Virus record (IMG/VR): IMGVR_UViG_3300048113_000008
Span: 1 to 25,047 of that record
DNA from: a virus
DNA length: 25,047 nucleotides
Direction: 5' to 3' (one strand)
The notes beneath the pieces are model-generated. The model had not been told where the DNA came from. It saw only the letters and a list, made by a program, of their open reading frames with translations, and did no database searches. Made by a program: the position numbers and the translations under genes. Positions 7,037 through 25,018 of the stretch are shown piece by piece (within the stretch, counting starts at the first letter, position 1; each line of letters opens with the position of its first letter).

Positions 7037-8089
7037 ATGGCAAAACTTTTTAACAGAGCCAAGATGAACACCGCAACAAGTGGCTCTGGAACTTTAACAT
7101 TAACTACAGCCGACACTGGTTATCAAACATTTGCAGATGCAGGCGTTACAAATGGCGATGTGGTTGCATACGTTATAGAAGAAGGAACAAACTGGGAAAT
7201 AGGAACAGGGACTTATTCTTCTAGTGGAACTACATTAACAAGAACACCAACTGAAAGCAGTGGTGGCGGTAGTGCTATTTCATTAGGCGGTACAGCAAAA
7301 GTTTTTATTACTGCATTATCAGATGATTTTGGCAAGGTACAACATGACGGTGTTGCTAAAATGGTGGCGCACTCTAGTGGTATAACTGTTACTGGTAATG
7401 TAACTGTTAGTGGGAATGTAGACGGTAGAAATTTAGCTACTGACGGAACTAAACTTGACGGGGTAGCATCTAGTGCAGATGTTACAAGTGCGGCATTACC
7501 TTCTGCATTAACAGGTCTATCTACAGTAACAAGTTTATCGGGTTCTGATATTATACCAGTATATGATGGTACATCTACAACTTGGAAAAAAGCAACAATA
7601 ACAAATGCTTCCTTACAAGGACCGACAGGACCAACAGGCGGCACTGGCCCAACTGGACCGCAAGGAAGCCAAGGACCATCTGGAAGTGACGGTGGAACAG
7701 GCCCAACAGGACCCACTGGCCCTTCAGGCTCAAACGGTTCTACTGGACCAACTGGACCAACTGGACCCACTGGGCCGACTGGTCCAAGAGGTCCAACTGG
7801 CCCAAGAGGGCCGACAGGACCTACTGGAAATGCCGCGACAGGTTGGAACCAAGTAGGCTCTTATGCCCAAATACACTGGGCAGGCGCAGGGCTTAGACAC
7901 GCAGGGACAACTGTTGGGTCAGGTAGTTTATACGCTTGCTGTAACTATGCTTATCTCTATGGCGGACACTCTGTAACCAACAGGCCAAGCGGCTCTTGGC
8001 GGCTAATGGGTGGTACTGGTAGATATAACGGTTCATCAAACTTAAACCGTGACGATATGTATGCGTCAGTATTTGTGAGGTATGCTTAA
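7037..8089 (+). CDS. Collagen-like tail fibre
   Basis: Tail-fibre protein of 350 residues with clear modules. Residues 1-97 ([20 protein letters not shown] start, later [18 protein letters not shown]) form an N-terminal module that I know from many marine phage fibres and that probably attaches to the tail. Residues near 128-148 carry the frequent [16 protein letters not shown] spacer. Residues 195-266 are 24 uninterrupted G-X-Y triplets, half of them GPT, expected to form a collagen triple helix and so a trimeric shaft. A C-terminal globular domain of about 80 residues (from [13 protein letters not shown], ending [10 protein letters not shown]) is the likely receptor-binding tip. TAGGAG at 7025-7030 is the ribosome site. 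The stop overlaps the start of a tail-assembly-chaperone-like gene. Two oxygenase genes follow and could act on this fibre. Confidence 0.9.
7619..7834 (+). repeat. Collagen-type G-X-Y repeat region
   Basis: Twenty-four consecutive glycine-led triplets in the fibre gene: 12 GPT, 2 GPR, 2 GPS, 1 GPQ, and the rest GGT, GSQ, GSD, GSN, GST and GNA. Proline occurs only at the X position, 17 times, and never at Y. Threonine dominates Y. At the DNA level the triplets are near-identical 9-base units with varied third bases, so length could change by slippage or recombination. Confidence 0.95.
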
Positions 8090-8514
8090 TGTCTATTCCA
8101 ATTACAGAATATCGTAATGCTAAAGTTTCAACGGAAGACGGTGGGCGCATAGATGTTGAAATAAACCACCCTGATTATGGTTGGATAGAATATACGCTTG
8201 ATGTTGAAGATACCGACATGACCATAGATAACAGCGCATTGATGACCTTAATCGGTGACGATAAGGAGCCTTATGTTGCTCCTACAGCCGAAGCAGTCGC
8301 GGCTGAAAAGGCTTTTATAATTAGGCAAGAAAGAGATTTTAGGTTGGCGCAATTAGATATTATTCTTTCTAATCCTTTACGTTGGGATGCAATGTCGGAC
8401 GAAGAAAAAGCTTCTTGGATAACCTACAGAACGGCATTATTAAATGTTCCGCAGCAATCAACTTTTCCAGACAGTGTTACTTGGCCTGCTTCCCCCGATG
8501 GTATGTTTTCGTAA
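8089..8514 (+). CDS. Tail fibre assembly chaperone-like protein
   Basis: A 141-residue protein whose C-terminal half matches the phage tail assembly chaperone pattern. It has a run containing RDFRLAQLDIILSNPLRWDAM, a helix with WITYRTALLNVPQQSTFPDS, and the ending VTWPASPDG. The 'yR..L...P.Q..FP.....WP' core is the recognisable signature (Phage_tail_APC type). The N-terminal half is beta-rich (ITEYRNAKVSTEDGGRIDVE) and may contact the fibre. Such proteins typically help fibres trimerise and are often encoded directly after them. Here the ATG overlaps the stop of the collagen-like fibre (TAATG at 8087-8091), so the fibre is the likely client. It may instead be a small structural domain carrying the same motif. 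Confidence 0.75.
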   Translation: MSIPITEYRNAKVSTEDGGRIDVEINHPDYGWIEYTLDVEDTDMTIDNSALMTLIGDDKEPYVAPTAEAVAAEKAFIIRQERDFRLAQLDIILSNPLRWDAMSDEEKASWITYRTALLNVPQQSTFPDSVTWPASPDGMFS

Positions 8515-9179
8515 TGGATATAAAGGAAATTAACTTACTAGGAAATCGATCTTTTCAAATAGATAATTTCTACGACCACCCTGCTTATATTATGGATATG
8601 GTGTTATCAGGACCACCAAATAAAGTAATGACTGAACACCCACTACATGGTGATGAGTTTTTTGATTTGCGCCATCATAGAAAAGAGCCGACGCTAGAAA
8701 AATATACAGACCAATTAGTTGAGATATTAGATAGTGAATTGCAATCTTTTGATGTTTATAAAGAGGACGGTTGCGATGTTTTGGACACTAATTTTATGCG
8801 GTGGAAAAAATCAGATTGGAATAATTACGAAGAAAATTTTTGGTTTCCGCATCAAGACGATGGTTGGGTATGTATAATATATTTAAATGAAGCTGAGACT
8901 AATGGCACAAATATATATGTTGATAAGAACGCAAGCATTCACAGCTATGGCGGTAAGAAAACAGAACAAGACCGACACCCTTGGAAACCAAAATCAGACT
9001 TTGAAATAGTTGATTATTTAGAGCCTAAATTTAACAGAGGATTTTTATTTAACGCAAAACGTATACCGCATGGTGCAGCTATAAATGATGATACATATTT
9101 TTATTCTGAAGCAGACCGTAACTACAGTCGGCACAGATTAAATCAAGCTTTATTCTTTTTTCCAAGGCCACCAAAATAA
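8514..9179 (+). CDS. 2OG-Fe(II) oxygenase-like protein, first of pair
   Basis: A 221-residue protein with the jelly-roll dioxygenase signature. HQD at 113-115 (in WFPHQDDGW) provides the first His and Asp iron ligands, followed by the strand VCIIYLNE. H186 (in AKRIPHGAA) is the distal His, and R206 or R208 is a candidate for binding 2-oxoglutarate. This spacing fits the 2-oxoglutarate/Fe(II) superfamily, and the overall sequence resembles the DUF6445 group as I recall it. The ATG at 8514 overlaps the preceding stop as TAATG; a longer frame begins upstream inside the chaperone gene but is unlikely. The stop overlaps the second oxygenase gene. The substrate is unknown; the collagen-like fibre upstream is a candidate. 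Confidence 0.85.
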   Translation: MDIKEINLLGNRSFQIDNFYDHPAYIMDMVLSGPPNKVMTEHPLHGDEFFDLRHHRKEPTLEKYTDQLVEILDSELQSFDVYKEDGCDVLDTNFMRWKKSDWNNYEENFWFPHQDDGWVCIIYLNEAETNGTNIYVDKNASIHSYGGKKTEQDRHPWKPKSDFEIVDYLEPKFNRGFLFNAKRIPHGAAINDDTYFYSEADRNYSRHRLNQALFFFPRPPK

Positions 9180-9718
9180 TGCGACAAAACTGGCAATTAT
9201 ATAAAAGAAATATTGCGCCCGACGTAGTGCAAAATATTATTGACCAAGCAGGCGAAACAACAAAAGCAGGCACGTTTAATAACGCAGACGATAGTATTCG
9301 AAGCAGTCGTGTTTGTTGGCTTACAAACGAAGATTGGCTTAAAGATTTGCTATTTCAGTATGTAGACCATTCATGCCAAAATGCTTTTTATGTAAATGTT
9401 TTTAAAAATGCAGAAATACAATACACAGAATATCATGCTTCAGAAAATGGTCACTATGATTGGCATCACGATATTGATTGGAATGCAAATGATGGTTTGG
9501 ACAGAAAGCTATCCATAACTGTTCAGTTAAGCGACATAAATGAATATGAGGGTGGTGACTTTCAATTTACAGAAGTTCCAAACCCAGAAATGGAAGATGC
9601 AAAGCAAAAAGGTACTGTTTTAATTTTTCCAAGTTATTTAATACATCAAGTTTCGCCAGTGACTAAAGGCGTAAGAAAATCACTTGTGGCATGGTTCAAA
9701 GGACCAAAGTGGCAATAG
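9179..9718 (+). CDS. 2OG-Fe(II) oxygenase, PKHD/prolyl-hydroxylase-like
   Basis: A 179-residue protein with a textbook 2-oxoglutarate/Fe(II) oxygenase core. H96 and D98 (in HYDWHHDID) are the proximal iron ligands, H156 (in FPSYLIHQVSPVTKGVR) is the distal ligand, and R166 should bind 2-oxoglutarate. Strands LSITVQLSD and GGDFQFTE are as expected. The pattern closely follows PKHD-type hydroxylases and prolyl 4-hydroxylase-like enzymes, which hydroxylate amino-acid side chains, but the substrate cannot be read from sequence. It starts at ATG 9179 by TAATG overlap with the other oxygenase, so the two are probably made together. No signal peptide is seen, so it should act in the host cytoplasm before lysis. 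Confidence 0.92.
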   Translation: MRQNWQLYKRNIAPDVVQNIIDQAGETTKAGTFNNADDSIRSSRVCWLTNEDWLKDLLFQYVDHSCQNAFYVNVFKNAEIQYTEYHASENGHYDWHHDIDWNANDGLDRKLSITVQLSDINEYEGGDFQFTEVPNPEMEDAKQKGTVLIFPSYLIHQVSPVTKGVRKSLVAWFKGPKWQ

Positions 9719-24587: not shown

Positions 24588-24678
24588 ACGAAATAGGTTT
24601 GTGGTGTATACAGCAGAAGGTAAAGTTGTTATACAAACAAGTGACTTAAAGATTGCAAGAGGGTTTTTAAATGAGTGA
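24568..24678 (+). CDS. Overlapping 36-residue microprotein
   Basis: Frame from ATG 24568 to TGA 24678 encoding 36 residues that begin MYLVEIKRNRFVVYTAEG and end in KIARGFLNE. The sequence alternates charged and hydrophobic residues like a short beta-sheet protein and does not look random. It fills the otherwise empty 83-base gap between 24587 and 24671, overlapping the upstream gene by 20 bases and the downstream gene by 8. No strong Shine-Dalgarno is seen, so coupling to the TTG-start gene is likely. I recall similar MYLVEIK-type small phage proteins; this was not checked. Confidence 0.65.
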   Translation: MYLVEIKRNRFVVYTAEGKVVIQTSDLKIARGFLNE

Positions 24679-25018
24679 ATTTAAAAAAGCTGACAGTAAT
24701 GGTGATGGCGTAATACAGCCTGATGAGTGGGAAAAGTTAAAACTTGAAGAGCGAAGGCTTGAAATTAACGACAGAGATTTAAAGCGTGATGCAGAAAGAA
24801 GATACACAGGCTTTGCATTAGCAGGAATGTTAATTTATCCGTTTATTATATTACTTGCTAGTGTCTTAGGTTTTGATAAAGCGGCTACATTAATTACAGA
24901 TATTGCGTCAGTTTATGTTATTGCTGCATCTGGTGTAGTAGCGGCATTTATGGGCTTCAATGCATACTCTGCGAAATCAGATAAAAAAACATCTATGAGC
25001 ATGGAGGGTGAAAAATGA
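24671..25018 (+). CDS. EF-hand protein with two membrane helices (115 aa)
   Basis: A canonical EF-hand loop lies at residues 8-19 (DSNGDGVIQPDE: D1, N3, D5, G6, I8, E12), followed by a charged helix. Two membrane helices follow, at about 46-66 (TGFALAGMLIYPFIILLASV) and 76-97 (TDIASVYVIAASGVVAAFMG), and a polar tail. The topology of a small protein with two membrane helices fits a holin-like protein, with calcium binding near the N-terminus as an added feature. I recognise EF-hand plus membrane-helix proteins as frequent in marine phages, without a known function. It overlaps both neighbours (8 bases upstream, ATGA with the downstream gene). Confidence 0.85.
   Translation: MSEFKKADSNGDGVIQPDEWEKLKLEERRLEINDRDLKRDAERRYTGFALAGMLIYPFIILLASVLGFDKAATLITDIASVYVIAASGVVAAFMGFNAYSAKSDKKTSMSMEGEK

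Follow-up and report, generated by a model that had tools for sequence, protein, structure and literature searches.

Does a marine phage modify its own collagen-like tail fibre? The question is raised by a 25 kb IMG/VR virus record of a marine, podovirus-like phage, whose portal shares 46% identity with that of Octadecabacter Antarctic DB virus 2. We refer to the whole analysed stretch of 25,047 nucleotides as the window. An earlier note, made from the letters alone, had described a fibre with collagen-type repeats, a chaperone-like gene and two 2OG/Fe(II) oxygenases, here called OX1 and OX2, in one coupled unit, and had proposed that one or both enzymes modify the virion fibre. Our comparison of relatives lends support to this proposal, both through the co-occurrence of the enzymes with collagen-like fibres and through a match between each enzyme and a stalk residue. 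We consider it likely that the unit is a fibre cassette in which both enzymes modify the stalk, with OX2 directed at X-position proline and OX1 at the sequon GxRGPT, most simply at its arginine.

Organisation of the fibre cassette

The cassette and its parts are as follows.

7037..8089, + strand: collagen-like tail fibre, 350 aa (PF01391, 1.1e-10; PHROG tail fibre families), composed of an N-terminal anchor (aa 1-194), a collagen stalk and a C-terminal tip (aa 267-350)
7619..7834, + strand: collagen stalk, 24 G-X-Y triplets, aa 195-266; 17 of the X positions are Pro, no Y position is
7787..7789, + strand: codon of Arg251, first GPRGPT sequon (GxRGPT), proposed OX1 site
7805..7807, + strand: codon of Arg257, second GPRGPT sequon (GxRGPT), proposed OX1 site
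8089..8514, + strand: tail fibre assembly chaperone (PF16778 Phage_tail_APC, 2.2e-14; phrog_4628, 2.5e-25)
8514..9179, + strand: OX1, putative 2OG/Fe(II) oxygenase, DUF6445-like, 221 aa, with invariant HxD...H...R; tracks Arg at Y
9179..9718, + strand: OX2, 2OG/Fe(II) oxygenase of predicted prolyl-4-hydroxylase fold, 179 aa (PF13640, 8e-15); tracks Pro at X

TAATG is found at all three junctions between fibre, chaperone, OX1 and OX2, as the earlier note had read them, and the Phage_tail_APC match agrees with its chaperone-like gene. OX2 shows no coupling to the gene that follows. No glycosyltransferase turned up in the cassette, nor in the other window genes that were scanned. As regards an L230/LH3-type cassette, a PLOD-type enzyme is absent near the window fibre and the stalk is devoid of Lys. 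At the far end of the window (24671-25018), a small protein gives an EF-hand match (3.8e-6).

The stalk consists of exactly 24 G-X-Y triplets in succession, with no interruption. Shuffling the fibre protein 5000 times yielded longest G-X-Y runs that averaged 3.2 triplets and reached a maximum of 7, versus the 24 observed. With an uninterrupted repeat above chance and a PF01391 match, the window fibre is collagen-like, and the triplet number given earlier holds. The X positions are occupied by 17 Pro, 4 Ser, 2 Gly and 1 Asn, whereas the Y positions hold Thr in 15 of 24 triplets and no Pro. This distribution of proline is the one previously stated. It also bears out the exclusion of classical collagen prolyl 4-hydroxylation at Y, for which the window fibre offers no Y-position Pro as substrate. 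The sequon GxRGPT occurs twice in the stalk, at Arg251 and Arg257.

OX2 and, more tentatively, OX1 as 2OG/Fe(II) oxygenases

OX2 is clearly a 2OG/Fe(II) oxygenase. It matches PF13640 at 8e-15, and its iron ligands H96-x-D98 and H156 and its 2OG-binding R166 are invariant in 21 relatives. In its AF2 prediction (pLDDT 95), OX2 models as a prolyl-4-hydroxylase-type fold, and the best PDB matches are P. putida P4H (PDB 4iw3, the top match with a TM of 0.76), PHD2 (HIF prolyl hydroxylase) and PBCV-1 vCPH. A role as peptidyl-proline hydroxylase is suggested by comparison, in that Pro at X tracks OX2 among related loci.

For OX1, an identity as oxygenase is reasonable, yet weaker than for OX2, because OX1 itself has no match in Pfam and belongs to PHROG phrog_1644, which is labelled 'minor coat protein'. 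We set this label aside as it looks wrong; the relatives keep the oxygenase ligands. H113-x-D115, H186 and R208 are invariant across seven sequences, down to 30% identity, and relatives of OX1 match DUF6445 as well as PF13640, the latter weakly, with values (2e-4 and 0.005) that fall short of the curated cutoff. OX1 gave no signal in profile comparisons, either against OX2 or against PDB sequences. The AF2 model of OX1 was poor (mean pLDDT 45) and for this reason was left out of the fold search. Both sets of ligands that had been called intact are conserved; the oxygenase identity attached to them is clear for OX2 and less certain for OX1.

Oxygenases and collagen-like fibres occur together in related loci

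The comparison set comprised some 90 related gene clusters. To survey co-occurrence, as the earlier note had suggested, loci were recruited by flanking genes (adaptor; structural protein), a choice that is therefore blind to collagen and oxygenases, and 44 non-redundant intervals were compared. An oxygenase is present in 11 of the 12 collagen-bearing intervals versus 0 of the 32 collagen-less ones (Fisher p=1.6e-9), far from the equal frequency that would have spoken against a link. All 11 oxygenase-bearing intervals have a fibre of at least 8 triplets, and one of the 33 intervals without an oxygenase (L132) has a 9-triplet glycine-rich ORF. Near collagen-less relatives share a ten-residue sequence of the fibre anchor but carry different tips, with glycine-rich or DUF6065 genes beside them, and a Pfam check of ten proteins from collagen-less intervals detected no 2OG domain. 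In L173, an APC-bearing module without collagen is also without the enzymes. DUF6065 proteins were seen in fibre modules with and without collagen (L018 2719-3504; L155 6729-7421; L168 5152-5853).

Recruiting viral relatives by OX2 alone, a first survey found collagen adjoining in 37 of 47 loci; in the other ten the oxygenase lies within 1 kb of a contig end. When the count is restricted to viral OX2 loci with at least 3 kb of upstream DNA, a collagen-like ORF adjoins in 44 of 44, upstream of OX2 in 42 and just downstream in 2. The order and spacing of the cassettes vary, with OX1 before or after OX2 and OX2 up to 3.2 kb off.

Many GPT-rich phage collagens lack a nearby enzyme, and the enzymes are therefore not required for such fibres. 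Among 39 fibres without the PLOD-type fusion described below, all with at least 6 kb of downstream sequence and many recruited by the GPT pattern, 23 have none of the three enzymes within 6.5 kb downstream. Nor does the collagen link extend to the oxygenase family as a whole, an idea that we rejected: cyanophages encode distant homologues of OX1 and OX2 (about 30-38%) in other contexts, without collagen, and SAR116 bacterial OX2 homologues (45-48%) have no collagen within reach.

Several further arrangements were seen. Additional 2OG oxygenases (PF13640 or PF13759) lie in collagen cassettes (L018 4018-4587; L063 7038-7673; L050 7002-7577; L052 3702-4358) and possibly have substrates of their own. 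In Sphingobium, Novosphingobium and related sphingomonads, GPx-repeat ORFs that carry Pro at X come after the bacterial OX2 homologue, as in L566 8795-10171 and L577 9565-11634; these loci are a possible cellular counterpart, with the caveat that their GC-rich repeats appear on the other strand too. Chromosomal collagen-like ORFs near OX2 homologues are found in L601 (Terriglobia), which also matches the PLOD-type profile, and in L604 (Gammaproteobacteria).

A fusion enzyme of related cassettes as a positive control

Related cassettes contain a third enzyme of about 590 aa, a fusion of GT25, PLOD-glycosyltransferase and lysyl hydroxylase. Within it are matches to human COLGALT1 (7e-17), to the glycosyltransferase domain of LH3 (1e-56) and to mimivirus lysyl hydroxylase (4e-10). 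As collagen lysyl hydroxylation and glycosylation are the known activities of these homologues, the fusion provides the method with a positive control. Its relatives are present on 451 IMG/VR stretches and in isolates such as Roseobacter phage CRP-6, which has the fusion alone and a fibre poor in Pro, and the Synechococcus phages S-CAM9 and S-PRM1, which have OX2 as well; the genes are annotated there as hypothetical or as generic oxygenase. Examples of the fusion gene are:

L018, 5265-7031
L405, 7998-9767 (Roseobacter phage CRP-6)
L408, 9872-11713 (S-CAM9)

Fibres adjoining the fusion are rich in Lys at Y (GQKGEV, GAKGQK). All 68 non-redundant fibres of this kind have at least 5% Lys at Y, and their lysines are distributed as 1507 at Y versus 1 at X. 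Only 2 of 39 fibres without the fusion reach 5% Lys at Y, and 15 OX2-only fibres have none. Lys without a nearby fusion occurs in L353 and L336, and also in L391, where less downstream sequence is available. The absence of Lys is weakened as a special mark of window-type fibres, as enzyme-less collagens recruited by GPT are almost Lys-free too. In L018, the fusion gene is followed by an FkbM-type methyltransferase (PF05050; 7024-7572) that might methylate an attached sugar, and similar genes come after the fusion in L049, L240, L256 and L275.

Arginine and proline of the stalk track OX1 and OX2

We scanned 40 features, namely 20 residues at positions X and Y, without prior choice among them. 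The top feature of OX1 is Arg at Y, which was found in 15 of 16 cases with OX1 versus 4 of 76 without (p=3e-16). For OX2 among PLOD-bearing loci, the top feature is Pro at X (p=3e-10): a content of at least 10% is reached by 47 of 48 fibres with OX2 versus 0 of 20 without. L236 has kept OX2, yet its fibre has 0 Pro in 148 triplets. The earlier note, having excluded Y-position proline, had left X-position Pro, Thr, Arg or another protein as targets. X-position Pro and Arg emerge as the top features of OX2 and OX1, respectively, whereas BclA-type glycosylation of Thr lost ground, with no glycosyltransferase found in the cassette or the scanned window genes.

In bacterial and phage collagens at large, positive residues are found preferentially at Y (PMC3368898, PMC13138384), and they include Lys and Arg even in phage collagens that lack these enzymes (PMC3368898). 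Having Lys or Arg at Y is therefore not diagnostic by itself; what carries weight is the connection with the enzyme and with the sequon. In OX1-bearing fibres, 44 of 44 Arg lie within G[A/S/P]RGPT (GxRGPT), while in shuffled triplets GPT follows Arg in 43% of cases, with a maximum of 70% (5000 shuffles). Fibres without OX1 have Arg in mixed contexts. One of the few such fibres with Arg is that of S-CAM9, in which 3 of 4 Arg stand outside the sequon; an OX1 homologue lies elsewhere in that genome.

Alternative explanations

The Arg, Pro and Lys matches might reflect shared ancestry instead of a fit between enzyme and substrate, given that the cassettes are related and that the absence of OX2 is concentrated in a few PLOD clades. 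On the OX2 tree, OX1 changes 9 times. In eight independent pairs, taken on well-supported (starred) branches, Arg follows OX1 in 7.8 on average and never does the opposite (p=0.008), a value to be read with the proviso that co-transfer of fibre tip and OX1 could overstate the independence of the pairs. For PLOD and Lys, all 5 of 5 pairs are in agreement (p=0.06, as five pairs cannot reach 0.05). The PLOD tree has three changes of OX2, and Pro went along in all of them (3 of 3). The OX1/Arg match survives the tree test, and the OX2/Pro match rests on these few changes. Moreover, the close fibres L035 and L074, with 73% identity in the N-terminal anchor and 58% in the tip, differ in both OX1 and Arg. 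We judge ancestry to be quite an unlikely source of the matches. It is also unlikely that the oxygenases are passengers of a recombining fibre module and target a host protein, surface or metabolite. Such passengers would suit the modular swapping of fibre regions, the distant oxygenase homologues outside fibre loci and the Pro-free fibre of L236, but they predict neither a residue-by-residue match nor a fixed GxRGPT sequon. Moreover, the collagen link holds despite the varied gene order and spacing, and the collagen-less module of L173 lacks the enzymes although it bears an APC gene.

Other alternatives keep the stalk as the substrate and move the target residue. OX1 may recognise RGPT, spare the Arg and hydroxylate the Pro or Thr that comes next, or a neighbouring residue. 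The sequon does remain invariant past Arg, through GPT, in all 44 instances; however, OX2 fibres abound in GPT whether OX1 is present or not, and Arg alone tracks OX1 strongly in all comparisons. We doubt this reading, while granting it a real chance. Threonine itself, hydroxylated or primed for a glycosylation like that of BclA in Bacillus (PMC8968730), is a candidate because it fills 15 of 24 Y positions. Yet Thr is frequent at Y whether or not the enzymes are present (median 0.46-0.65 across all enzyme classes) and the window's cassette shows no glycosyltransferase, and we hold Thr as the real target to be very improbable.

Proposed mechanism

We favour modification of the stalk by both enzymes. 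What we observed is the cassette structure, the co-occurrence, the residue match and the predicted fold of OX2; the reactions, their timing and order and their benefit are our inference. Translational coupling would allow the enzymes to reach newly made chains while the triple helix is still open. Drawing on host iron, oxygen and 2-oxoglutarate, OX2 would hydroxylate proline at X, mainly in GPT triplets, and OX1 would act at GxRGPT, most simply by arginine hydroxylation. A triple helix can gain stability from hydroxyproline at X when Thr comes next. The likely benefit would be a stalk that is more stable or better hydrated.

Across the related phages, these pairings may constitute a modular code, in which the enzymes come and go with their residues, namely Pro at X for OX2, the Arg of GxRGPT for OX1 and Lys at Y for the fusion, and in which OX1 is a collagen arginine hydroxylase. 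We regard this broader reading as evenly balanced between right and wrong. To our knowledge, arginine hydroxylase activity is known in no collagen.

Comparison with known systems

Bacteria and viruses have been said to lack enzymes for collagen prolyl hydroxylation (PMC3368898), and a recent review states the same of bacteria (PMC13138384). A Baltic survey counted prolyl 4-hydroxylase among the abundant viral genes and called its viral use cryptic (PMC9301287). The cassettes described here would give a concrete answer, with the phage's own fibre as substrate. If the proposal is correct, they also offer compact enzymes for hydroxylated collagen in bacteria, possibly with a new residue specificity, and the enzymes of related phages would probably give glycosylated collagen too. 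Our literature search, which left subscription papers mostly outside reach, found no description of collagen hydroxylation or modification in phages. Virus-encoded collagen modification as such is already known from mimivirus and reported for PBCV-1; collagen-arginine hydroxylation by OX1 would be new, if true.

The top fold match of OX2, Pseudomonas putida P4H (PDB 4iw3), has EF-Tu as its partner in complex. The fold therefore does not fix the substrate, which is a warning for OX2. The P4H of B. anthracis reportedly takes proline at X as a substrate (PMC8968730). A bacterial enzyme that is reported to hydroxylate X and Y prolines of collagen-like peptides resembles the proposed system in being prokaryotic, but it favours Y and was tested on PPG peptides, whereas the Y positions of the window stalk are Pro-free. 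The collagen-like tail fibres of E. coli prophages (EPcl proteins) share with the window fibre a collagen-like domain with Pro mainly at X, but no modifying enzymes are reported for them (PMC3368898).

Among viruses, the viral collagen prolyl hydroxylase of PBCV-1, vCPH (PDB 5c5t), has the prolyl-4-hydroxylase fold in common with the OX2 model, although it belongs to an algal (chlorella) virus and shares only 15-18% identity with OX2 in the fold alignment; collagen modification in PBCV-1 is reported in work cited by PMC9301287. Mimivirus L230 combines collagen lysyl hydroxylase and glucosyltransferase, with activity shown (Luther 2011, cited in PMC4691112). It differs in coming from a eukaryotic giant virus, whereas the window carries two stand-alone oxygenases, no lysyl hydroxylase and no stalk Lys. 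The likeness lies in the principle, a virus-encoded 2OG oxygenase that modifies the virus's own collagen-like protein, as we propose for OX1 and OX2, and in the homologous domain fusion carried by cassettes related to that of the window.
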